Shown here: piece by piece, positions 871 through 13,926 of the stretch
Numbering within the stretch: position 1 is the stretch's first letter
Layout: each line of letters opens with the position of its first letter
NCBI RefSeq assembly: GCF_014203045.1
Contig: NZ_JACHIF010000001.1
Span: 620,001-684,000 of the forward strand
DNA length: 64,000 nt
Direction of reading: 5' to 3'
From: Prosthecobacter dejongeii
GTDB lineage: Bacteria > Verrucomicrobiota > Verrucomicrobiia > Verrucomicrobiales > Verrucomicrobiaceae
Notes under the pieces: generated by a model
What the model was told of the DNA's origin: nothing
The model's database searches: none
What the model saw: the letters and a program-made list of their open reading frames with translations, nothing else
Made by a program: the position numbers and the translations under genes

Positions 871-2139
871 TTAGAACTTGAGGGTGATTTGCCCAGCCAC
901 CAAATGGTGGCCCTCACGGCCAGCGCCTTCCCGTCCGGCCATGCTGTATTGCAGCTTCGCCTGGAGGTGGCGGCTAAAGCGGTAGCCCACAGAGAGATCC
1001 GCCCGCCAGCCGTCATTGTCCCAGGCCGTGTCAGTGCCTGGCAGATCGCCGAACCAACTTTGATTCCATCTCGTCGCCACCCACCACTGGGGGCCTAACT
1101 TGCGCTTCACTTCCACAAAGCCGCTCCAGACTCGGACTGCCGCTGCTCGATTGGCAATGCTTGAACCCACAAAACCAAAACCACCCGCATTGGGCGTCTC
1201 AAATCGGCTAGTCATCAGCTCTCCCCACACCTGCCAGGGACCATGAGCCCATGAAGCGTCCACACCCAAAGTAGTCTGGTTATAGTCACGCCGTCCCTCA
1301 TCCAGAAAAGGTGCCCCGCCTATGATCACCATGGGAGGGATGGTCGAGGCATCTGTCAGGTAAGGCCCATGGCTGTAAGAAGCGCCCAGATTCCACTCCG
1401 GGGCAGGCCGCAGGCCCACCCTGCCCGTGTAGGTGGTGCCCTCCCAGCCACCCTGAATCGCATCCCAATTTCGCGGAGCCGAAGACAGCGCCGCATTCTT
1501 CACTTCAAAGGCGTAGTCCACCGGACCCACTTGGCCAAACACCGACGCCCCCGTGGCATACGAAGGCCCCCAGATGATGGGCAGCCAAGTATCACGATTG
1601 TCCGGTTTGAACCGACGACCGGCGATGCCGCCCAGCGGCACGAAGGTCTCATCCGTCACCGGCAGCATGTCATTGTATGCCATGGGGGCAGTGATGAAGG
1701 GATTGTCCCACGACAAGCGGCGGCCCGTCCAGGAGCCAAAGGCGGTGGCAAACTTACCTAACCGGAAGTTGATCCAGCTTTTCTCCAGAGGTTTCCATTC
1801 GAGAAAGTATTCGTCTAGGCGCGTCTGCCCATCCGAGGCAAAACCGGGATCAAATCCCCGGTCCACCCGCATCTGCACATGGCCACGCAGATGTTCTGTG
1901 GCTTGGAGGTTTAGGAACAGCGTCAGGCGCGGATTGAAAAACAGATCGTCATCCGTATTTAGCAGGCCCATGGCCGGTGCATCGGGTGCGTACAGCTCCA
2001 GATCCATCAGACCCGAGAGATCGGCCCGAAACATCTGGTTAGGCGTGGCCACCGTCAGCGCCTCATCCACCGTCTCCAACACGGACTGGGCAGTGGCGGA
2101 AACCGTGCTGAAAAGCAAAAGGGCGAGAAGTTTTTTCAT
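871..2139 (-). CDS. Putative outer-membrane beta-barrel (porin-like) protein
   Basis: A 422-residue exported protein. It begins MKKLLALLLFSTVSATAQ, a signal peptide, followed by long alternating amphipathic stretches rich in Trp, Tyr and Gly, with plain barrel-strand patterns such as GQWWVATRWNQSWFG-type segments near the end. It terminates in the strand HHLVAGQITLKF with a C-terminal Phe, the classic signal for insertion of outer-membrane barrels. The frame is open further upstream, but the ATG at 2139 overlaps the stop of the cyclase gene by one base (TGATG), which implies translational coupling and fixes the start. It resembles alginate-export or phosphate-porin type barrels in general shape; the substrate is unknown. 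Confidence 0.65.
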   Translation of the reverse strand: MKKLLALLLFSTVSATAQSVLETVDEALTVATPNQMFRADLSGLMDLELYAPDAPAMGLLNTDDDLFFNPRLTLFLNLQATEHLRGHVQMRVDRGFDPGFASDGQTRLDEYFLEWKPLEKSWINFRLGKFATAFGSWTGRRLSWDNPFITAPMAYNDMLPVTDETFVPLGGIAGRRFKPDNRDTWLPIIWGPSYATGASVFGQVGPVDYAFEVKNAALSSAPRNWDAIQGGWEGTTYTGRVGLRPAPEWNLGASYSHGPYLTDASTIPPMVIIGGAPFLDEGRRDYNQTTLGVDASWAHGPWQVWGELMTSRFETPNAGGFGFVGSSIANRAAAVRVWSGFVEVKRKLGPQWWVATRWNQSWFGDLPGTDTAWDNDGWRADLSVGYRFSRHLQAKLQYSMAGREGAGREGHHLVAGQITLKF

Positions 2140-3842
2140 CAGACGGGGGAGGGGGCAATGACGATGCGGAAAGCGGTGACAGCATCTGCAAAACCTTTCA
2201 ACTTCAAAGGTTCTAGAGGCACTGAAGGGAAATTGGAAGACAGCCGTTGATGAGTAGCTGCATCCACCACGATCTCCCCCGCCGCCGCGCTGCTGCACAG
2301 ACGGGCTGCTAAATTCACATGCTCACCCACCACGGTGTAATCCGCACGGTTTTCCGCCCCGATGCAGCCGGCCACAACCGTGCCCGTAGCGATGCCAATG
2401 CCGATGCCCATCGGCTCATGGCTTTCCGCATTCAGCCGCTGGCGTTCGGCGATCATCTCCAGGGCACAGCTCACCGCATTCTGCGCATCGTCACCATGGC
2501 TCGCCGGGGCGCCGAACAGGATCATGATGGCGTCTCCAGCGAACTGGTTGATCACCCCATGCCAGCGATAAACCACCCGTGTCAGCGCCCCCATGTGATC
2601 ATTGAGCAGGGTGATGACCTCGCGCGGGTCCCGCCCTGCACTGAGAGCGGTATAACCACGAATGTCGCAAAACACCACCGTCACCTGGCGCAACTCCCCA
2701 CCGAGCTGGATGCTGCCCGCCATGAGCTGCTCAGCCACGCGTGCATCCGCCACCATGCTCAGCACGGAGTGGTAGCGCTCCTTCAGCTCCAGTCCTGCCG
2801 TCATGTCATTGAAGGACTCCGTCAGCGCGGCCAGCTCATCTGTCCTCCCACGCTCCAGTCGCACTTTTAGATTTCCCGCTCTCACCGCATTGGTCGCCGT
2901 CACCAGCTCGCCAATAGGCTTCGACAACTGCGCCGCAAACAACCACCCCGCCACGGAAGCCAGCAGCAGCGCCACAGACCCGATGCCGACCACGCGCCAC
3001 TGCAATCCTTTTTGTTGGGCCTGAAGCTCCTCCAAAGAAAACACACTCACCAACCAGGCGGCAGGAAAGCGAGACGCCGCATTCAGCAGATGCGCATGCG
3101 CCAGGTAGTCCGTCCCCTCCTGCTGAAAGGAAAACTCCACTTGCTCCACCGTCGGCTCCAGAGCCTTCAGGGGTGCGGCGGCGGCCTGGGGGAGGCTGGC
3201 CCCGAGAAGCTGCCCCTGCGTCCAAAAAGCCGCCTGCAAAGGCTGGTTTCCCTGGCCGCCCAGCACCGGCATCAGCCTCCGTACACTTTGCCCCAGGAAC
3301 AGGGTGCCCACGGTCTGGTCAAAGTTCCGAATGTGCAGGGCCAGCACCCGATGCAGATCCTGCCCGCCTTCAAAACCCGGCAGCAGGACAAAACCCACCT
3401 GCGCCTGAGTTTGCTCTTCGGGCAGGGTTTTAGAGACGGTTTCCAACTGCACCGTCAGGGCCCTTTCAGCCGCCTCTTGGAAGTGCCCTGAACGACTGCC
3501 CTCCGGCGGCGGCATCAGGCCAGTCTGGGCACTGGCGAGGCGAAAAAAATCAAACTCTGCCAGCCGCAGTTCATCTGCTGCCACTTGGTAAGTTTCTGGG
3601 TCTCCCTCCTCAAGGGCGGCAAAGAGCCGCACGGACTCCGCTAGCCGAGCCGCCTGCTTCCGGGCCAGTTGCAGCTGCGCCTCCTGCTCCACGCGAAAAG
3701 CGGCCATCTGCTGGCTGAAAAGCGTGTCCACCATGCTCCGGTAGGACGCACTGTTTTGCGACTGCGCCACCATCAGCACTGCCGCTGTCGTGCCGGCGAC
3801 CACTCCCAGAATGGCCTGCTGAAGCTTGGCACGAAAGGTCAT
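2139..3842 (-). CDS. Membrane-bound class III adenylate/guanylate cyclase with HAMP domain
   Basis: A 567-residue sensor cyclase. It has one membrane helix near residues 10-26, an extracytoplasmic sensory region of about 250 residues, a second helix near 280-304, a HAMP linker (about 301-353) and a class III cyclase domain from about 385 to 545. The two metal-binding aspartates are present (D393 in FCDIRGYTAL and D437 in FAGDAIMILFG), as are the transition-state Asn510 and Arg514 (VNLAARL). The usual substrate-selecting Lys before the second metal site is Gln433 (NQFAGD), and the paired Asp/Thr is Glu507 (VVGEHVN), so activity and ATP/GTP preference are open. It lies 15 bp after the cupredoxin gene and is coupled to the following barrel gene. 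Confidence 0.85.
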   Translation of the reverse strand: MTFRAKLQQAILGVVAGTTAAVLMVAQSQNSASYRSMVDTLFSQQMAAFRVEQEAQLQLARKQAARLAESVRLFAALEEGDPETYQVAADELRLAEFDFFRLASAQTGLMPPPEGSRSGHFQEAAERALTVQLETVSKTLPEEQTQAQVGFVLLPGFEGGQDLHRVLALHIRNFDQTVGTLFLGQSVRRLMPVLGGQGNQPLQAAFWTQGQLLGASLPQAAAAPLKALEPTVEQVEFSFQQEGTDYLAHAHLLNAASRFPAAWLVSVFSLEELQAQQKGLQWRVVGIGSVALLLASVAGWLFAAQLSKPIGELVTATNAVRAGNLKVRLERGRTDELAALTESFNDMTAGLELKERYHSVLSMVADARVAEQLMAGSIQLGGELRQVTVVFCDIRGYTALSAGRDPREVITLLNDHMGALTRVVYRWHGVINQFAGDAIMILFGAPASHGDDAQNAVSCALEMIAERQRLNAESHEPMGIGIGIATGTVVAGCIGAENRADYTVVGEHVNLAARLCSSAAAGEIVVDAATHQRLSSNFPSVPLEPLKLKGFADAVTAFRIVIAPSPV

Positions 3843-3857
3843 GGCACAGTGGGGAAA

Positions 3858-4502
3858 TTATCGTGACAACTGAGCGGAGGCCGTCTTTCCCTCCGTCACC
3901 GTCACCTGACCCTGCACCGTTTTTTCAGAGGGCAGCAGGGCTTTGATCTGGTAGCTGCCCGCAGGCACGCCGCTGATCTTGAATCGCCCCTGCGCATCCG
4001 TCACGGCAAACCAGGGCGTGTCCAGTACCAGCACCCGGCAGCGCATGTGCTGGTGGATCTCGCAGTAGATTTTGACCAGGCCCGCTTTGTCAAATTGGAT
4101 GCGAGGGCTGGGCTCATTCTTGCGAAAGCGCCCCAGGTCAAAGCGGCGGATTTTGGAATAACTAAAAACGTTGTGAAATTCATCATCGCCATTGGGGAAC
4201 TCCGCACTCGCACCTTTTTGCAAAGCCACGAGAGATGGACGAAACTGGTAGCCGCGTTGCTGGATCTTCACCACTTCACCTGTGCGTGTTTGTGGATAAT
4301 CACCCGTGCTGGTTTCCAGCCACACAATGGCCACCCCTGGCTCTTCCCCTTCGATGGGTTTCACCGTCTTCGGTTTGTATCCCGCATCCACCGCCGGTGG
4401 GCGCTGGCTATCCAGCACCACCGTGCCCTGCACCCCACCTGCGGCCATAGCAGACAGACTCCAGGAAAGAACGATCAGGGGTATGAGAAGCAGAGCCTTC
4501 AT
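3858..4502 (-). CDS. Exported plastocyanin/cupredoxin-like copper protein
   Basis: A 214-residue protein with a signal peptide (MKALLLIPLIVLSWSLSAMA). The middle part resembles a cupredoxin with a full type 1 copper ligand set: His110 (EFHNVFS), then Cys147, His150 and Met153 in YCEIHQHM. The last 50 or so residues (AVTDAQGRFKISGVPAGSYQ) form a carboxypeptidase-regulatory-like beta-sandwich, a common partner of such cupredoxins. It probably sits in the periplasm and carries electrons or binds copper. It follows the 5424-4549 barrel gene by 46 bp and precedes the cyclase by 15 bp, so the genes are probably co-transcribed; copper or redox state is a plausible input for the cyclase, but that is inference. 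Confidence 0.8.
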   Translation of the reverse strand: MKALLLIPLIVLSWSLSAMAAGGVQGTVVLDSQRPPAVDAGYKPKTVKPIEGEEPGVAIVWLETSTGDYPQTRTGEVVKIQQRGYQFRPSLVALQKGASAEFPNGDDEFHNVFSYSKIRRFDLGRFRKNEPSPRIQFDKAGLVKIYCEIHQHMRCRVLVLDTPWFAVTDAQGRFKISGVPAGSYQIKALLPSEKTVQGQVTVTEGKTASAQLSR

Positions 4503-4548
4503 CGCGGGCTATGAAAGCCGCGTTTTCACTCCCTGCCAACTGCGAAGG

Positions 4549-5424
4549 TCAAAACGACCAACGCACATTCAGAGCACCGAAGGGAGCTGGGTCGAGATTT
4601 TCATCCACCCGCACGCGCTCTTGCTCATCGCGGATTTCAAATTCACCCCCGAAATTGATCCCCCCACGCAGAGATACCGTCAGTTTATCCGTCGCTTTCC
4701 AGATGATGGAGGCCGCACTCTGCCAGCCTGAGACTGCAAGGGTATTCGTCCCATCGTTGCGGTCCAGATCCCAAGAGCCACCGCTGGGGTAAAGGCTGAG
4801 GCTGAGCGTTAGTGGCTCACTCACCTGGTAACCCAGCACCATGAACGGTGGCGTCACCTGCACAATCCAATCTCCAGGCCGCCAGATGAAACCCAGCGCC
4901 GGCAGCAGCGTGCCATCCTCGTTCGCATAACTGGCGAAGACACCGCCAGCAATGGTGAAGGTCTTCGTAAATTCATACCCGATCAAGCCCAAGGCTGAGA
5001 TCTGGAAATCATCCAGCGAGATGCCATTGAAGTCTGTGCCCAGACCTGGAGTGACGAATCCCAGCCCCCACCAGTCACTGGTGGGCGAGTTCCAGAAATA
5101 GGCTATCTGAGCTTCAAGCGTGTGCAGGTCCAGCCTGTCACCTGGATCAAAGTTGATCTGCGTGAGATTGTAGCCCAGCGAGGTGCTCAAACGCCCGCCT
5201 TCACCCACCTTCGTGCTCCACACCGGGATGATGGTGCGGACTTCAAACATTTCCAAACTGCCCCGCAAGCTGCCATCGAAATCCTGTTGCCCGATGAAGG
5301 TGGTATCCACCATGTAACCGGGGCGGCCAAAGCCAAAAGCAGCCGGGTCGATCAGTTCAGCCGCAGGCAGAGAAGCCGCCAGAGAACAAGCAGCACAGAG
5401 GGAAAGCGTGAATTTGAGGGGCAT
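4549..5424 (-). CDS. Putative outer-membrane beta-barrel protein (DUF6268-like)
   Basis: A 291-residue exported protein with a signal peptide ending near ASLPAAE (residue 22). The rest is a run of amphipathic beta strands with Gly, Trp and Tyr turns, ending in FGALNVRWSF, a C-terminal Phe barrel signature. The shape is like small outer-membrane proteins annotated as DUF6268, but I assign that from memory and with reserve. It is the first gene of the leftward operon that continues with the cupredoxin, cyclase and second barrel. No transporter or enzyme motif is visible. Confidence 0.55.
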   Translation of the reverse strand: MPLKFTLSLCAACSLAASLPAAELIDPAAFGFGRPGYMVDTTFIGQQDFDGSLRGSLEMFEVRTIIPVWSTKVGEGGRLSTSLGYNLTQINFDPGDRLDLHTLEAQIAYFWNSPTSDWWGLGFVTPGLGTDFNGISLDDFQISALGLIGYEFTKTFTIAGGVFASYANEDGTLLPALGFIWRPGDWIVQVTPPFMVLGYQVSEPLTLSLSLYPSGGSWDLDRNDGTNTLAVSGWQSAASIIWKATDKLTVSLRGGINFGGEFEIRDEQERVRVDENLDPAPFGALNVRWSF

Positions 5425-5490: not shown

Positions 5491-7377
5491 TTACACCCGA
5501 CTCCAGCGCTGGAAGGTTTCGATGGCTTCATACTCCGCCAGCCCCAGGGCATCGTAGTTCCGGGCGTTTTGCCGGTTTGATTCTGGCGAGGCCAGTTCCA
5601 GGCTGGAAAGAGAACCGTAACGGGACAGCGCGCGGCCTTTACGCCCGAGCTGCATGGGGCTGAGCGGCACCGCCATGTCAATCTCATGTGCCGCGAGCGG
5701 CTTCTCCTTGCCGCGATAAAGCCACAGACTGGTATTTCCAGACCAGTCTTCCGTCTTGCAGGCTTTGAGGGCCGCCTCCAAAACTTTAAAGCAGATACCC
5801 GCCACACTGCTGGGGTCTGCCGCATCCCCCGTCGCATAGATCTGGTGCGGTTTGTTTTCCCGCAGCAGGGCCGCCAGGGCCTCCACGTCCGCTTCCGTGC
5901 TTTTAAAGCGGCGGTAACGGCCCTGCTCATAAAACGGCAGGTCCAGGAATGTCACATGATCATTCGCCACATTGCAGGCGTGGGCTGCATCCCGCAGTTC
6001 CCCACGCAGGATGAGGCCCTTGAGCTGACGCAGCACAGGGGTGTCTTCGCCAAATTCACCTTTCTCCTCAAGCAGGCGCAGCACCTCACGGGCATAGGCG
6101 GTCTGGTTTTGCCAGGCCGGACTGTCTTCCACGATGCCTGCCAGCTCCAGCAAAGTGCCGGCGAATTTGTCCGCCTCGCTGTCGGCAATGCGCAGGCTGC
6201 CACTGGTCAGCGCCACGATACGCACATCATGCCCTTGCTCGACAAGTCGCTCGATCGTGCTGCCCATGGCCACGATGGCGTCCTGCGGCTCAGGGCTGAA
6301 AACGAGCACGCGTTTCGGGTAAGGCGTCGCCCGTTCAGGACGGTAGGTATCGTCCTCGTTCGGCTTGCCACCCGGCCAGCCCGTGATGGTGTGCTGGAGC
6401 TGGTTGAAGATGCGGATGTTGAGCTGATAAGCCGGACCTTGTTCCGAGAGGAGATCGCTGAGGCCATGTTCATTGTAGTGCTCATCCGTCAGCTTCAGCA
6501 CCGGGCGCTTCGTTTTAAAGGCCTGCCAAGTCACCGCGCGGCGGGTCTCACGCGGCGTCCAGGAAACCGGACCAACGAGCCATGGCAACTTCACCCGCGT
6601 CAGCTCGCGAGAGGCACCTACATCAATGAAAAAACGGGCATCGGGATGATCCTGCAAAAAGGAGGCGGAGATGGCCTCCGTGACTTCGCCTTCTACGGCC
6701 TTGGCCACCATCTCGGCCTTGTTTTCACCCCAGGCCATCAGCACCAGCTTCTTGCCCCGCAGGATGGTGCCCACCCCCATGGTGATGGCAAAATGAGGCA
6801 CATTTTCTTCACCGCGAAAGTCAGCCGCAGCGTCCTGGCGCGTCACGCGGTCCAGCGTGATGCGGCGTGTCAGAGAGTCCCGGCTGGAGCCCGGCTCGTT
6901 GAAACCGATGTGGCCCGTACGCCCGATACCGAGGATCTGGAAATCAATGCCGCCCGCAGCATCCATCTTTTCTTCATACTCACGGCAATGGGCAAAGACC
7001 TGGTCCCCAGGAACGAGACCGCTGGGGATGTTGATGTTCGCCTTTGGGATATCAATGTGATCAAAAATCTGCTCCCGCATGAAGCAGGCATAGCTTTCTG
7101 GATGGTCACCCCCGAGGCCGTAGTATTCGTCGAGGTTGAAGGTGATGACGTTTTTGAAGCTCAGGCCCTCTTCCTTATGCAGGCGGATCAACTCGCGGTA
7201 AAAAGGCACGGGCGTGGAACCTGTGGCCATACCAAGCACCACATTTTTCCCCTCTTTAGCACGCTCTTCGATCAACGCCTTGACCTCGGCTGCGAGGGCC
7301 TTTGCTGCCGCTCCAGAGTTGGGAAAAATGTGCGTGGGGATGTGCTCGTAGGACTCAGCAAGGGTGCGGCGGGACAT
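5491..7377 (-). CDS. nagB: Glucosamine-6-phosphate deaminase fused to a degenerate PIG-L/LmbE domain
   Basis: A 628-residue long-form NagB. Residues 1-280 carry the deaminase/isomerase fold: the phosphate loop GMATGSTP, the base Asp83 (FNLDEYYGL) and His156/Glu161 in GIGRTGHIGFNEPGS. This converts glucosamine-6-phosphate to fructose-6-phosphate and ammonia in amino-sugar catabolism. Residues 350-600 match the C-terminal PIG-L deacetylase-like domain typical of long-form NagB in Bacteroidetes and relatives, including a YRGKEKP-type segment and EIDMAVPLSP. The zinc motif, normally SPHPDD, reads SPEPQDA at 361-367, and the later His motif (DPHGTH type) reads DPSSVAG at 521-527, so the domain is probably not a metal deacetylase. 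The ATG at 7377 is the only sensible start. Confidence 0.9.
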   Translation of the reverse strand: MSRRTLAESYEHIPTHIFPNSGAAAKALAAEVKALIEERAKEGKNVVLGMATGSTPVPFYRELIRLHKEEGLSFKNVITFNLDEYYGLGGDHPESYACFMREQIFDHIDIPKANINIPSGLVPGDQVFAHCREYEEKMDAAGGIDFQILGIGRTGHIGFNEPGSSRDSLTRRITLDRVTRQDAAADFRGEENVPHFAITMGVGTILRGKKLVLMAWGENKAEMVAKAVEGEVTEAISASFLQDHPDARFFIDVGASRELTRVKLPWLVGPVSWTPRETRRAVTWQAFKTKRPVLKLTDEHYNEHGLSDLLSEQGPAYQLNIRIFNQLQHTITGWPGGKPNEDDTYRPERATPYPKRVLVFSPEPQDAIVAMGSTIERLVEQGHDVRIVALTSGSLRIADSEADKFAGTLLELAGIVEDSPAWQNQTAYAREVLRLLEEKGEFGEDTPVLRQLKGLILRGELRDAAHACNVANDHVTFLDLPFYEQGRYRRFKSTEADVEALAALLRENKPHQIYATGDAADPSSVAGICFKVLEAALKACKTEDWSGNTSLWLYRGKEKPLAAHEIDMAVPLSPMQLGRKGRALSRYGSLSSLELASPESNRQNARNYDALGLAEYEAIETFQRWSRV

Positions 7378-7554: not shown

Positions 7555-8184
7555 TTAACGATTGCGCACCACTCCCACGGTTTTGCCGCAGGCCTCCCGG
7601 ACTTTTTCCCACTGCCCTTCCTGGATCCACTCGCGTTTCGCCATCCAGGTCCCACCACAGGCGACGATGCTGGGATTTTTCAGGTAACTCGGCAAATTGT
7701 CAAAGCTCACCCCACCCGTAGGGAGGAACTGCATTTTCGGGAAGGGTCCAGCAAGAGCCTCGATCGCACTGATGCCGCCGAAGGCATGGCTAGGGAAAAA
7801 CTTCACCAGCGAAACCCCCAGATTCTGCGCCTGCATGATCTCGGTGGGTGTGACGGCTCCTGGGATGACCAGCACGTCCCGGCGGCGGCCATGACGCAGG
7901 ATGTTTTCATCCAACCCAGGCGTGACGATGAAACGCACCCCGAGACGCCAGGCCGCGTCAAATTGCGCCAAGGTTGTCACCGTGCCTGCCCCCACGATCA
8001 TGTCCCGCCGATCAATGATGCGTTCCAACGCGGCGAGTGAGTCTGGCGTACGCAAGGTCACTTCCACAATCGGCAATCCACCTGCCACAAGAGCATCTGA
8101 AAGAGGCTTAGCCGTCTTTAGATCATCAATGACGACGGTAGGAATGATGCGGTGGTGGGCGAGGAGATCAATGCTCTCGTTCAT
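7555..8184 (-). CDS. eda: 2-dehydro-3-deoxy-phosphogluconate aldolase / 4-hydroxy-2-oxoglutarate aldolase
   Basis: A 209-residue cytosolic class I aldolase of the KDPG family, near the usual 200-215 residue length. It cleaves 2-keto-3-deoxy-6-phosphogluconate to pyruvate and glyceraldehyde-3-phosphate, or a related keto-acid. The catalytic Glu41 lies in VEVTLRTP, the Schiff-base Lys128 in VSLVKFFPSHAFGG, and the phosphate-binding PTGGV is near residues 156-160. GAGTV (65-69) is the standard glycine loop. It precedes nagB on the same strand with a 177-bp gap that shows no clear promoter, so shared transcription is possible but unproven. The exact substrate (KDPG, KDPGal or HOG) cannot be told from sequence alone. 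Confidence 0.88.
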   Translation of the reverse strand: MNESIDLLAHHRIIPTVVIDDLKTAKPLSDALVAGGLPIVEVTLRTPDSLAALERIIDRRDMIVGAGTVTTLAQFDAAWRLGVRFIVTPGLDENILRHGRRRDVLVIPGAVTPTEIMQAQNLGVSLVKFFPSHAFGGISAIEALAGPFPKMQFLPTGGVSFDNLPSYLKNPSIVACGGTWMAKREWIQEGQWEKVREACGKTVGVVRNR

Positions 8185-8562
8185 AAAGTGGCGGGGGTAT
8201 CACAGAGTCTTCCCCCTGTACCGGGATCCACTACGCAAGTTACACAAAATCTTCACACAACAGAGAATGCTCCCTGTCACATGAGTGCATCATCCATTGA
8301 GGCAGACTCATGATCACTCCCTTCCAAATATTTAGTTAGACTAGATCCCCGTAGATCTTTTTAGCAAAGGCCTCTGGCAGCATCCAAGACCGTTTTCAAA
8401 GCCGCCTCTTCCCCCTCGTGAAACCCCTCAGGCTCGACTGACTTCGGGGTCATTTTCCGGCCACAGAACTACCGCCAGCAGCATCTCCCTATAAAAATGC
8501 TGGAATGTACCCCCTTCACTCGTAGTCTTACGCTCCCCCAACCCGCCAACTTTCCCCCCGCT
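8185..8562 (+). other. Intergenic region upstream of the giant repeat protein gene
   Basis: This 378-bp stretch between the divergent aldolase gene and the repeat-protein gene shows no plausible gene. The rightward frame is open from 8497, but that part has no protein character. A TATAAA hexamer at 8490-8495 could be a -10 element giving a 5' leader of about 60 bases, but no matching -35 box is seen. Promoters for both flanking genes must lie here. Confidence 0.35.
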
Positions 8563-11500
8563 ATGCGTCAACTGCTTTGCAGCCTGATTGGTTTTTTCGT
8601 CGTCTCATCCCTTTCTGCCCAAACTCGCACCTGGACGGGTGCCGGTGCGGATGACAACTGGGGCACCGCAGCTAACTGGGGCGGCACCGCCCCAGTGGCA
8701 GGCAACAGCATCGGTTTTGCGGGTACCACCCGACTGAATACCATCAATAACCTGGCAGCAGACACGAACATTGCCGGGATCTTTTTTCTCTCAGGCGCAG
8801 GCACCTTCAACCTGGCTGGAAACCGCATCACGCTCGGCGGCAACATCACGCAAAGCGGCACGGCGCTCCAGACCATTGATCTGAACATGGTCCTGAGTGC
8901 GACACGCTTTTTCACACAGGGTTCCGCCGCTGCGACGACGACCGGGAATATTGTGGTCAATGGGGTGGTCAGCGGTTCAGGCGGCTTGGTCAAAGCAGGA
9001 GCCAACACTTCCAATACCACTTTGCATAACACCCTGACACTGACTGCTGCCAATACTTACACGGGCGGCACCTATGCCTCCTCCGGGTCATTGACCCTCT
9101 CCGGAGCAGGCTCCGTCCTCAATAGCAGCGGTATTTATGTAGATAACGGGGCGGCGATCGGCAGCATTTATTCCATGGGCGGGCGCTTGCTCCTAGATAA
9201 CTCCGCAGGGAATTTGAACCGCCTGGGTGACACCACACCTGTGTACCTCCGTGCGATCGGCAACCTTCAACTCACCGGCAACGCCACAGCGGACACGACG
9301 GAAACGATTGGCCAGATCAATCTGGGCAGCACGGTATCCGGGGGGCGTGGCATCATCACGCTGGATGGCACTGCGGCGGGCCGCCTGCACACCCTGGCAG
9401 CAGCGGGCCTAACACGCAATACCACCAGTACCCTGCTGGCCCGTGGAACGAATTTGGGGCAGGCAGATACGAACGCCACCCGCATCACCCTGGCCTCCAC
9501 CAGCGGCCTGAGTTTTGTTGGCACCAGTTCCGCCAGCGGCCTCACACCGGGATCGGTCAAAGACATTCGCATTGTCCCCTACATGGTCGGAGACATCACC
9601 GCGACTGGAAATGGATCCAGCTTCGTCACCTATGACGCTGTCAGTGGTTTGCGTCCATTGGCTGCCAGCGAATACACGGTCCTTTCTGCGGGCTTCGTCA
9701 ACACGCCGACACCTGAAAACACCACCGGTTTCAACGGCACCATCACTTCGGCAAGTCCCACGGTGAACTCCCTGCGGTTCGTCCATACTTCAACAACCAC
9801 TCTGGCTGGTACGGGGACGCTGTCGATTGCCAGCGGCGCACTGGCGAATTTTGGCACGGCAAGCACGGCCATCAACGGGTTCAGCAGCATCACTTTTGGG
9901 GATGGCACTTGGAACGAAGGCGTCATCACTTCCCAAGGAAGCGTCCTCACCATCAATTCTCCGATTCATGTCACGGGCGGCGGTGGCATCACCAAGGCTG
10001 GGGCCAGCGAAGTGGTACTGACGGTGGCCAATACTTACACCGGTGAAACCAACATCCATCAAGGGCGGTTGACCATTTCGCATCCGAATGCCCTGGGCAG
10101 CACCAGCGGGCGCACCGTGGTGAGTGCCTTGGATGGCGGGCAGTTGGCGTTGAGCAACAACATCTCTGTTGCTGAACCCATCATGCTGGTAGGTGAAAAT
10201 GGCGGCTTTGGTGCAGCCCTGGTGAACCTGTCCGGCACCAACACCCTCACGGGCTTGCTGTCCATGACAGGGAGTTCTCGAGTGAGCATTGGCGGCATTT
10301 TGAACGTGACCGGCGGCATGAATGTGGTCACGAGCGCGCAGTTGGTCATCAATGGCAGCGGCACCCTCAATTTCAGCGGTCAGCCTGTGGTACTGGGATC
10401 CACCGGTAATTTTTACATGGACTCGAACATGCTGACCACTCTGGGCTCAACAGGGCACTTCTGGAATGCGACCCGCGTGTCAGCCAGCGGCACAGGAACT
10501 ATTTTACGGATGATGGGTGAGAATGCACTGCCGGAACGCAGCGAATTAATCCTGGGCGTCAACTATGCGCTGAATGGCAACCTGGATCTCAATGGCTTCA
10601 ACCAACTCGTCGGCTCTCTGTATTCGGGCTCTTCTGGCACTGGAACGACGACGACCGGGACACGTGTCATCACTAGCGCCACGCCTGCCACTTTGACCGT
10701 CAATCAGTTCACCACCACGACGTATGACGGTTTTTTCAGCGGGGCTGTTTCCCTGGTCAAATCAGGCACCGGATCCCTGGCGCTCATGGGTAACAATACC
10801 ACGACGGGTACGACCTCCGTGAACAACGGCACGCTTATTTTGGACTACACCACCGCCGCCAATGGCAGCAAGCTGGCAGATGGAGCGGCCCTGAATCTGG
10901 GCACCGCCACCTTGCAACTGGATCGCACCGCGACGTCGGCAGGCTCCCATGTGGAAGTGGTCGCCTCCACCACGTTGCAGGGGGCAGCAAACATCACGCG
11001 CCTCGGTGGCACCTCCAGCCTCCAGCTCAATGAGATCACCCGCGAGGGCGGCACCCTGAATATCGCTGCGGCAGGCATTGCCACCACGGATACCCTGAAC
11101 AATGGCGCGGGCATGCTCGGCACTTGGGCCACCTTCGGCGGCACGGATTGGGCGGTGAACTCTACGAATGCCGCAGATGGAGCCATCACCGCCTTCACCG
11201 GTTACAGTGACATCAACCGACTGGGCACCAGCGCGGTACCGAACACCTCTGCGGCCAACGTCCGCATCATCAATGGCGGAACCGCAGGCAACATCACCCT
11301 GGCCGCCGCCGTCACGGACATTCAGAGCCTGAACATGACCGCCAATGGTGGCACCACCACGATTGACCCTGGCACAGGCGAAATCCTGCGCCTCGGTGCC
11401 CAAGGCGGCATCCTTCACGCCACTGGGGCTAGCGCCCTCCTCATCGGCACCGCAGCCAATGATGGCACCCTCACCGCAGGGGGCGCACCGGACACCGCTG

Positions 11501-13926
11501 GGGAACTCATCATCCAGCGCTGGTCCACCAACGATCTCACCCTCCACTCCACCATCGCCAACAACGGCACGGGCGTGGTCTCCGTGACCATCGGCGGCAG
11601 CAATGGCACGACAGGAGCCACCCGCCTCACCGGCACCAACACCTACACAGGCCGCACCACCCTTTTAGCAGGCCGTGTCATCATAGACGCCGAAACGGCC
11701 CTGGGACTGAATCCCGCCGCCTTCGCAGCAGATCAGCTCACCCTCAATGGCGGCACCCTTTCCACCGCCACGGCCTTCTCCCTCGATGATACCAATCGCG
11801 GCATCACCCTGGGAGCCTCCGGCGGCACCCTGGAGGCGACCTCGGCAGCGAACGCCCTGGCCCTCACCGTCGCCGTACCCATCACGGGCAATGGCCCTCT
11901 GAACAAAACCGGCACGGGTGATGCCCAGCTCAGTGTCGCCAATAGCTACACCGGCCATACCTACGTGAATGCAGGCCGCCTGCGCATCAGTCATTCTTTA
12001 GCCCTGGGCACCTCCGCCAGCGGCGTCACAGTGGCCAGTGGAGCAGCCCTGAGACTGGAAGGCACGGGCCTAACCTTGGCCGATCCGATTTTCATCGCCG
12101 GTCAGGGAGCCAGCAGCGCCGGGGCTTTGCAAAGCAACACCAGCGGCAACAGCATTGTCTCAGGGCTGATCACCATGCCAGCTACGGGCAGCACGCGCAT
12201 CACCGCCACCAACACCGGGCGGCTCTTTGTCACGGGCGGGTTCCGCAGTGCCGCCTCCAGCACCTCAGACTCCCTCATCGTCGTCGGTGGTGTCACCTTC
12301 TCAGACAATCCGGTCAACATGTATACAGGCCGCCTGGAACTCGTTTCCGGCACCAATCAGCCCACCATCGCCGTCGCAGGCAACACCTACGGCGTTTTGA
12401 ACTCCGGCTGGGGTGCCCTTTCCCAGGTCACCGTGAGCAACGCTTTCAGCCCCACAGGCGCATTGGAGCTGGGCTATCACACCACTTTCAGCGGTGCCTC
12501 ACCGAACACCACCTTCAATCTCAATGCCACCCAGCAGACCGCCTCTGAGCTGCGCACCGGGGCCATCTCCATCGGCTCCGGCGGTTATGCCACACCTACC
12601 CGCATTCTCACAGGCACGGCAGGCTCTTCACTGACCCTCAATCAAACCACCAACAGCCTCTTTGATGGCAGCCTCCAGGGAGCGGTGTCCTTGGTCAAAA
12701 ACGGCGATGGCATTCTCAGCCTGCAAGGCAACAACACCACCACAGGAGACACCGTCCTGAATGCAGGCGGAATCGAACTCCGCAATTCTGCGGGAAATGT
12801 GCAATCTGGCACCGTCGGCACCAGCACCACCGTCGGCACTGGAAACTTTACCACCGTCCTCACAGGCCTAACCAATGCCACGACCACGCTGCTGGTGGGG
12901 CAACCTGTGACTGGCGCGGGCATCCCTGCGGGTTCCTTCATCGCTTCCATTGATAGCAATTCCCAAGTCACCATCCGCTCCACCGTCGCAGCCACCGCAG
13001 GCAGCACCAGCGCCACGTTTGGAGCTGTGACCGGAGCCCTGACCAATAGCACCCTGGACTATCGTGGCGGAGCCCTCAGCTTTGGCGTCACCACGGCTGC
13101 CACCACCTTGGGCGGCATCAAAGGCACGCAAAATCTGAACCTCACCAACGCAGGCAACAATCCCGTGGCACTCACCGTCGGCGGCAATAACCAGTCCACC
13201 CTTTACAGCGGCGCCATCAGCGGCAGCGGCTCCTTGATCAAAACCGGAACTGGCAGCCTGGAACTGACCGCCGCCAGCACCCACACAGGCGGCATCACCG
13301 TGAACAACGGCTCACTGCTCGTGAACAATAGCAGTGGCTCTGGCACAGGTTTCGGCACCGTCAGCGTCCTCACGGGAGCCACCCTGGGCGGCACCGGCAG
13401 CATCGGCTCCGCCAGTTCCACCGCCAGCATCACCCTCAATAGCGGCGGCACGCTGCGCATCGGCACCAGCCATGGTGGCACCGGCGGCAGTCCGGCAGAT
13501 CTCGAGCTCGCCACCAGCGGCCTCGGCACCCTCACCCTCAGTGGCACCGTGCAGTTTGATCTCTTCTCTCGCTCCGCTGGAATCAACAGCCTCGAAAACA
13601 ACGACCTGCTGCGCCTCACCTCCGCCACCGCCGTCAGCCTTTCCGGCACGCTGGAGGTTCTCAACAGCACCGGCAGCGATACCACCACGTGGGCTGCGGG
13701 AGATTCCTGGAGATTGTTCGACTGGAGCGCTGTCAGTGCTGAAACCCAGCACAGCGGCAACTTCAGCAACCTCATTCTCCCCACCCTCAATGCTGGGCTC
13801 GCCTGGGATACCAGCGCCCTCTTCACCACCGGGTTCATCACCATCACGCCTGAGCCCGGCCGCGCATTCTTGCTCGCCATCGGCGGGTTCAGCCTTCTGC
13901 TGCGTCGTCGCCGCCGGGTGGGTTGA
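8563..13926 (+). CDS. Giant autotransporter-associated beta-strand repeat protein with PEP-CTERM tail
   Basis: A 1787-residue secreted surface protein. The ATG at 8563 starts a clean signal peptide (MRQLLCSLIGFFVVSSLSAQ), so the longer frame from 8497 is not used. The body is low in charge, rich in Gly, Thr, Ser and Asn, and built from repeats of the PATR type (for example AANTYTGGT, VANTYTGET, TNTYTGRTT, VANSYTGHT, each followed by a G-x-L-x-I strand), which form a long beta-helix. The end is ITPEPGRAFLLAIGGFSLLL plus an Arg cluster: a PEP motif, a membrane helix and a basic tail, that is, a PEP-CTERM sorting signal cleaved by exosortase. No exosortase is encoded here. It probably ends up as an exopolysaccharide-associated or surface protein. 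Its last 38 bp overlap the convergent DUF3820 gene. Confidence 0.88.
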   Translation: MRQLLCSLIGFFVVSSLSAQTRTWTGAGADDNWGTAANWGGTAPVAGNSIGFAGTTRLNTINNLAADTNIAGIFFLSGAGTFNLAGNRITLGGNITQSGTALQTIDLNMVLSATRFFTQGSAAATTTGNIVVNGVVSGSGGLVKAGANTSNTTLHNTLTLTAANTYTGGTYASSGSLTLSGAGSVLNSSGIYVDNGAAIGSIYSMGGRLLLDNSAGNLNRLGDTTPVYLRAIGNLQLTGNATADTTETIGQINLGSTVSGGRGIITLDGTAAGRLHTLAAAGLTRNTTSTLLARGTNLGQADTNATRITLASTSGLSFVGTSSASGLTPGSVKDIRIVPYMVGDITATGNGSSFVTYDAVSGLRPLAASEYTVLSAGFVNTPTPENTTGFNGTITSASPTVNSLRFVHTSTTTLAGTGTLSIASGALANFGTASTAINGFSSITFGDGTWNEGVITSQGSVLTINSPIHVTGGGGITKAGASEVVLTVANTYTGETNIHQGRLTISHPNALGSTSGRTVVSALDGGQLALSNNISVAEPIMLVGENGGFGAALVNLSGTNTLTGLLSMTGSSRVSIGGILNVTGGMNVVTSAQLVINGSGTLNFSGQPVVLGSTGNFYMDSNMLTTLGSTGHFWNATRVSASGTGTILRMMGENALPERSELILGVNYALNGNLDLNGFNQLVGSLYSGSSGTGTTTTGTRVITSATPATLTVNQFTTTTYDGFFSGAVSLVKSGTGSLALMGNNTTTGTTSVNNGTLILDYTTAANGSKLADGAALNLGTATLQLDRTATSAGSHVEVVASTTLQGAANITRLGGTSSLQLNEITREGGTLNIAAAGIATTDTLNNGAGMLGTWATFGGTDWAVNSTNAADGAITAFTGYSDINRLGTSAVPNTSAANVRIINGGTAGNITLAAAVTDIQSLNMTANGGTTTIDPGTGEILRLGAQGGILHATGASALLIGTAANDGTLTAGGAPDTAGELIIQRWSTNDLTLHSTIANNGTGVVSVTIGGSNGTTGATRLTGTNTYTGRTTLLAGRVIIDAETALGLNPAAFAADQLTLNGGTLSTATAFSLDDTNRGITLGASGGTLEATSAANALALTVAVPITGNGPLNKTGTGDAQLSVANSYTGHTYVNAGRLRISHSLALGTSASGVTVASGAALRLEGTGLTLADPIFIAGQGASSAGALQSNTSGNSIVSGLITMPATGSTRITATNTGRLFVTGGFRSAASSTSDSLIVVGGVTFSDNPVNMYTGRLELVSGTNQPTIAVAGNTYGVLNSGWGALSQVTVSNAFSPTGALELGYHTTFSGASPNTTFNLNATQQTASELRTGAISIGSGGYATPTRILTGTAGSSLTLNQTTNSLFDGSLQGAVSLVKNGDGILSLQGNNTTTGDTVLNAGGIELRNSAGNVQSGTVGTSTTVGTGNFTTVLTGLTNATTTLLVGQPVTGAGIPAGSFIASIDSNSQVTIRSTVAATAGSTSATFGAVTGALTNSTLDYRGGALSFGVTTAATTLGGIKGTQNLNLTNAGNNPVALTVGGNNQSTLYSGAISGSGSLIKTGTGSLELTAASTHTGGITVNNGSLLVNNSSGSGTGFGTVSVLTGATLGGTGSIGSASSTASITLNSGGTLRIGTSHGGTGGSPADLELATSGLGTLTLSGTVQFDLFSRSAGINSLENNDLLRLTSATAVSLSGTLEVLNSTGSDTTTWAAGDSWRLFDWSAVSAETQHSGNFSNLILPTLNAGLAWDTSALFTTGFITITPEPGRAFLLAIGGFSLLLRRRRRVG

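Follow-up and report, generated by a model that had tools for sequence, protein, structure and literature searches.

The 64,000-nucleotide stretch of the Prosthecobacter dejongeii genome considered here (contig NZ_JACHIF010000001.1, positions 620,001 to 684,000; hereafter the window) carries near its start four adjacent genes on the minus strand. They encode a barrel protein (P0003), an exported cupredoxin (P0002), a membrane receptor with a cyclase domain (P0001) and a porin (P0004), and their positions are those of the open reading frames (ORFs) in the window (Table 1). The initial annotation had treated the four genes as one unit, tied together by their close spacing, with gaps of 46 bp and 15 bp at the first two junctions and an overlap of 1 bp at the third. 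This spacing is borne out by the ORF coordinates, whereas the four-gene unit is not: P0003 is separable, and the conserved unit is the trio of cupredoxin, receptor and porin. We interpret this trio, with a probability of about 0.55, as an envelope sensing unit, in which the cupredoxin is a soluble co-receptor that gives the periplasmic copper or redox state to the Cache receptor.

The three proteins of the conserved trio

P0002 displays the ligand pattern (His ... Cys-xn-His-xn-Met) of type-1 cupredoxins and is predicted to bind copper, in agreement with its initial annotation as a type 1 copper protein. Its signal peptide was recognised by eye. The Pfam Copper-bind model (PF00127) scores 15.3 bits, under the curated cut-off of 21.2, while the match to CarboxypepD_reg (33.2 bits) lies barely above its cut-off of 32.3. 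The ligand spacing C-x2-H-x2-M of the family is the same as in amicyanin, and the profile of the cupredoxin alignment (A1) matches amicyanin at E 0.005. All four ligands are invariant in the 27 rows of this alignment. Of 132 cupredoxin loci, all have Cys-x2-His-x2-Met and 130 have the first His; L176 and L177, both in other gene contexts, are the doubtful ones. In this count the pattern matched 129 loci and L175 was accepted by eye; the 132 loci correspond to 125 unique ones (seven rows are duplicated between sets), and five receptor-bearing loci among the last seven matches of the phylum search as well as the later plasmid records are not part of it.

The receptor P0001 had been described as a two-helix cyclase with a periplasmic sensor region, which agrees with its HAMP and Guanylate_cyc domains in Pfam and with a dCache domain placed between the helices by AlphaFold2. 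The model of residues 1-350 (mean predicted local distance difference test score, pLDDT, 90) opens with a long helix at the N-terminus, continues into a dCache-type domain and closes with another long helix. As modelled, P0001 is thus a dCache receptor with two Cache-type subdomains between two transmembrane (TM) helices. Structure comparison aligns the model with LuxQ over 201 residues (Z 13.5, root-mean-square deviation, rmsd, 4.9), at a rank tied with PctA and others, and many ligand-bound Cache structures are among the matches. Sequence-profile searches of the PDB with the receptor and porin profiles gave no match at E 1. Direct metal binding by the receptor was considered and rejected for the receptor family of the window (the first receptor family; 50 receptors, alignment A2), in which no conserved multi-ligand His/Cys/Met metal site was found and only M11, M12, C64 and H246 are His, Cys or Met in at least half of the rows.

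The active-site positions D393, D437, N510 and R514 are kept in the cyclase domain; we take them to be the two metal-binding Asp and the active-site Asn and Arg of class III cyclases. P0001 is accordingly classed from its sequence as a class III nucleotidyl cyclase with predicted activity. The Lys that presumably defines adenine specificity in class III adenylate cyclases is replaced by Gln (Q433), which occurs in the window and nine close relatives, i.e., in 10 of 44 cyclase loci, against Lys in the other 34 (duplicates counted). Thr503 stands where, to our understanding, class IIIb cyclases have Thr. The product would be cAMP or cGMP. Class III cyclase domains are rare in this genome, with three in 6 Mb in a genome-wide domain search. 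Elsewhere the genome encodes another receptor-cyclase that belongs to the first receptor family (G000:C11; L062 5801-7684) and has no adjacent cupredoxin.

Pfam gave no firm domain for P0004. Its AlphaFold2 model is a porin barrel nearest to OprP/OprO (Z 28.9, 310 aligned residues, rmsd 2.9; next entries 25.2), and by its modelled fold the protein is an OprP/OprO-like porin. The family alignment has 23 invariant columns over 50 rows, with a mean column identity of 52%. A porin-cytochrome-like electron conduit was set aside because the barrel fits porins of OprP/OmpF size and no cytochrome gene recurs in the ORF tables.

Table 1. Genes and domains of the locus, in window positions
Feature	Position	Strand	Description
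P0003	5424-4549	-	291 aa, DUF6268 barrel, 44 bits (Pfam); adjacent, outside the conserved unit
P0002	4502-3858	-	214 aa, exported type-1 amicyanin-like cupredoxin with CarboxypepD_reg; proposed soluble input protein
Copper-site stretch of P0002	4044..4175	-	H110 ... C147-x2-H150-x2-M153
P0001	3842-2139	-	567 aa, TM - dCache - TM - HAMP - class III cyclase receptor
dCache-type periplasmic domain of P0001	3009..3761	-	approximately residues 28-278; AlphaFold2 and dCache structure matches
HAMP of P0001	2787..2942	-	residues 301-352, PF00672, 47 bits
Class III cyclase domain of P0001	2181..2690	-	residues 385-554, PF00211 (Guanylate_cyc), 102 bits
P0004	2139-871	-	422 aa, OprP/OprO-like porin, third gene of the conserved trio

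Conservation of the pairing and exchange of outputs

In relatives of the window the gene order holds for cupredoxin, receptor and porin and largely fails for P0003. Among 141 genomes of the bacterial order, 29 cupredoxins (that of the window included) match P0002 at E < 1e-30; weaker matches were left aside, except two fragments in G032. The receptor adjoins the cupredoxin in 24 of these 29 loci. The full succession of cupredoxin, receptor and porin is found in 22 of them, and the remaining two (L048, L050) carry the porin on the upstream side, ahead of the regulator. Because this order recurs in distant relatives, and because there are only three class III cyclases in 6 Mb, the gene association appears to go beyond chance.

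The pairing recurs in searches beyond these genomes. It is present in 79 of 80 database loci, L103 being the exception, although this set leans to close relatives because the best 80 of 441 relatives from genome contigs were kept. A search of the phylum (E up to 1e-20) gave 35 matches in 27 of 288 genomes, of which 8 were known already; the other 27 were all viewed, and the receptor adjoins the cupredoxin in 22 and is not adjacent in five. Among 13 plasmid records found with a Comamonas query (E up to 1e-10; nine of them Caballeronia), 12 have the receptor next to the cupredoxin and the 13th retains a Cache-only remnant. A wider plasmid search (E up to 1e-3) gave 55 records, from which L143-L147 were viewed; the plasmid views left out two Caballeronia records and the Rhizobium, Phyllobacterium, Rhodobacteraceae and Streptomyces records. 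In the single Sinorhizobium record viewed (1 of 33) the cupredoxin lies in a different context. A unit of Verrucomicrobiota type also occurs in metagenome bins whose titles name Akkermansia muciniphila or Klebsiella pneumoniae (L065, L066, L098, L113), and these titles look wrong; the cupredoxin of L065 is identical to that of G122, which belongs to the genus of the window.

The porin is likewise closely bound to the cupredoxin. Its family has 31 copies in 30 of the 141 genomes, 30 of which adjoin a cupredoxin by coordinates; in G032 the porin and a truncated cupredoxin both lie at a contig edge. The exception is G049, where the porin stands between neighbours like those in G136 and G021, and cupredoxin and receptor are absent. 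Of the 95 unique loci in which a first-family receptor has an assigned output, 83 carry the porin no more than a few kb away on the same strand. In eight of the 12 others the contig breaks off within the receptor or shortly after it (L068 retains a porin fragment).

The signalling end of the receptor is exchanged repeatedly between these loci. The 29 loci of the bacterial order comprise 16 cyclases, eight histidine kinases and five without a receptor output. The database set comprises 45 histidine kinases, 23 cyclases, three hybrid kinases, one without output (L103) and eight loci that end inside the receptor, to which no output was assigned. The 27 further phylum matches add six histidine kinases, five hybrid kinases, ten cyclases, one Ser/Thr kinase and five without output. 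L141 and L130, with overlapping or split frames, were assigned to the histidine kinases by hand, and the receptors of L094 and L110 are also split in two frames. Sampled kinase receptors have HisKA and HATPase domains in Pfam, two neighbouring regulators have Response_reg and Trans_reg_C, and Chthoniobacter flavus has the hybrid-kinase form.

Exchange occurred within each of two receptor families. The first, to which the window belongs, carries cyclase, histidine kinase and hybrid kinase outputs; the second carries cyclase, hybrid kinase, GGDEF-EAL and, once, Ser/Thr kinase outputs. Both are dCache families, by model or Pfam. Second-family receptors in the phylum match the Caballeronia plasmid receptor at 40-148 bits, and the first-family profile reaches about 1 bit on two plasmid receptors and 23-30 bits on the second-family L167, L170 and L174, which leaves a distant sequence link between the families possible. 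On the Pseudomonadota plasmids an EAL-domain gene directly follows the cupredoxin in 12 of 13 records, assigned as dCache_3-HAMP-GGDEF-EAL by Pfam in three, by similarity in three and by annotated name alone in six. In G192, one locus (L173 4951-6473) carries a tandem pair of cupredoxin-like ORFs, followed after 1.3 kb by an ORF of 803 aa that weakly matches the kinase and regulator profiles and may represent another variant.

Mapping the output label onto a tree of 120 cupredoxins requires 10 changes, compared to a mean of 49.9 after shuffling, so the outputs follow lineage yet changed several times. This is a quick tree with one support measure and the 10 changes lie partly on weakly supported branches; the well-supported branches alone force fewer (histidine kinase 2, cyclase 2, hybrid kinase 3, none 1, EAL 1). 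The tree left out L145 (116 residues, under the length cut), L173, L176, L177 and the eight rows of unassigned output, and the Ser/Thr-kinase row L175 forms a very long branch of unsure placement.

A proposed role of the soluble copper protein as sensory input, and alternatives

The constant part amid changing outputs is most simply part of the input, and we therefore place the cupredoxin, and in many Verrucomicrobiota the porin too, on the sensing side. That the cupredoxin is kept while the signalling end of the receptor is swapped suggests a little-known sensing system with the copper protein as its portable input. The exported cupredoxin with its type-1 copper site would act as a soluble co-receptor, and the periplasmic dCache domain of the receptor would read the cupredoxin's copper loading or redox state, or else a ligand bound to the cupredoxin's second domain. 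HAMP would carry the change across the membrane to the cytoplasmic output, which here would be the class III cyclase and in relatives one of several kinases (histidine, hybrid or Ser/Thr) or a GGDEF-EAL enzyme; the histidine kinases usually have a gene for an OmpR-type regulator close by. The OprP-like porin would be the outer-membrane partner of the cupredoxin and either let in what is sensed or be a controlled gate. We infer the contact between cupredoxin and dCache domain, copper or redox state as the signal, and this role of the porin from the arrangement as a whole. A route from periplasmic copper or redox state to a cyclic nucleotide, as initially proposed, thus finds support for cupredoxin, receptor and porin in their conserved order and exchange of outputs; it is not supported for P0003, and the cyclic nucleotide is one of several outputs.

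Several observations weigh against this interpretation. In five of the 29 loci of the bacterial order, and in L103, there is no receptor beside the cupredoxin and porin, and the receptor domain is also found without a cupredoxin, e.g., at G000:C11 and in copies in relatives. The porin is absent in four cyclase loci where its place is visible (L079, L108, L113, L122), and neither the viewed Pseudomonadota stretches nor ten second-family cyclase loci have a match to the porin profile. The receptor-less pairs would also be expected if cupredoxin and porin formed a transport or copper-handling pair and the receptor were their regulator, with a different signal sensed directly by its own Cache pocket. 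Direct binding of small ligands is common among Cache domains, as the many ligand-bound structures among the matches illustrate, and the porin is nearest to OprP/OprO. In addition, four second-family hybrid-kinase loci (L166-L169) have an ORF of 429-473 aa with a weak porin-profile match (19-43 bits) directly upstream of the cupredoxin. However, the Pseudomonadota plasmids and the ten second-family cyclase loci keep the cupredoxin with the receptor where no porin matches, and the output enzymes vary while the cupredoxin remains. We consider this regulator explanation unlikely, if worth keeping in view. Less probable still is that the cupredoxin carries electrons in a redox chain of the envelope and is tied to the receptor only via shared regulation. 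Cupredoxins are known mainly as electron carriers, and type-1 sites usually move electrons. Weaker homologs, which also count against a sensory role, occur in cytochrome-oxidase-like or other loci (L176, L177, L192, L146), and electron transfer is therefore possible for the cupredoxin family; in L176, L177 and L192 they adjoin genes which by eye resemble those of cytochrome oxidase or other respiratory subunits. Against this, no gene for a cytochrome or oxidoreductase is a recurring member of the unit at the viewed loci (ORF tables only), and the pairing with signalling genes is far commoner than that with respiratory ones, in a sample drawn by similarity to this cupredoxin.

The idea that both barrels, cupredoxin and receptor form one functional four-gene pathway draws on the 46-bp gap, the common strand and the same arrangement in G029, where the cupredoxin is 95% identical. 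G029 is the only one among the 28 viewed loci of relatives in the bacterial order with P0003 beside the trio; in two of these, G128 and G133, the place of P0003 is not visible because the contig ends just upstream of the cupredoxin. G017 has a P0003 copy (80% identical) after the same aldolase and isomerase/deacetylase genes as in the window and lacks the trio, while G013 has the trio after these genes and lacks P0003. We rejected P0003 as part of the unit on these grounds, and the four-gene reading, already largely refuted, is very improbable. The neighbouring genes are one that encodes a fusion of Glucosamine-6-phosphate isomerase and PIG-L deacetylase domains (window 5491-7377, Pfam) and an aldolase-like gene named from sequence by eye (7555-8184), a pair also present in G013, G017 and G029. 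Further on lies a repeat-rich autotransporter-like ORF of 1809 aa (8497-13926) with a PEP-CTERM-like tail, likewise recognised by eye.

Relation to known systems and significance

We file the trio of cupredoxin, receptor and porin under sensing by a soluble partner plus receptor. The closest parallel is LuxP-LuxQ of Vibrio, where the receptor has a dCache-like periplasmic domain and takes its input from a soluble protein of the periplasm; LuxQ belongs to the tied top-scoring structures of the P0001 model. LuxP binds autoinducer-2 (AI-2) and is not a copper protein, whereas the partner in the trio is a type-1 copper protein, the outputs are exchanged and a porin is attached. In CopMRS of Synechocystis a copper-binding protein is encoded with a two-component system, and the title and start of the abstract mention no cupredoxin fold, cyclase or porin (PMC4335983). 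Among the literature matches listed, covering titles and abstract starts and few subscription papers, we found no description of a cupredoxin-receptor-porin unit.

The dCache_3-HAMP-GGDEF-EAL proteins resemble the window's receptor in that they directly follow the same cupredoxin family in Caballeronia, Comamonas and Novosphingobium. They differ in their output, which judged from the domains is turnover of cyclic di-GMP (c-di-GMP), and belong to another receptor subfamily. DUF3034 and a truncated haemoglobin replace the porin in most of these records, and neither is present in Comamonas. On Burkholderiaceae plasmids (L143, L179-L181, L184-L186) DUF3034 and a group 1 truncated haemoglobin precede the cupredoxin-EAL pair, an arrangement that may hint at a second input such as O2 or NO. 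Among the annotated plasmid homologs of P0002 that were viewed, most are named "methylamine utilization protein" and are of the same family by profile, yet the stretches viewed contain signalling genes and no annotated methylamine dehydrogenase gene.

The title of PMC4822843 ranks Cache domains as the largest superfamily of extracellular sensors in prokaryotes. We tentatively propose, as a broader claim that falls somewhat short of even odds, that a blue-copper protein is a dedicated soluble co-receptor of Cache receptors, a widespread, undescribed and portable copper or redox input for cyclases, kinases, c-di-GMP enzymes and a Ser/Thr kinase, joined in Verrucomicrobiota by a private outer-membrane pore. 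The pairing of cupredoxin and receptor is directly testable with the purified cupredoxin and receptor domains. If true, the conserved pairing would add a metal or redox protein as an input to second-messenger and kinase signalling, and would suggest a role for the proteins now named "methylamine utilization protein".

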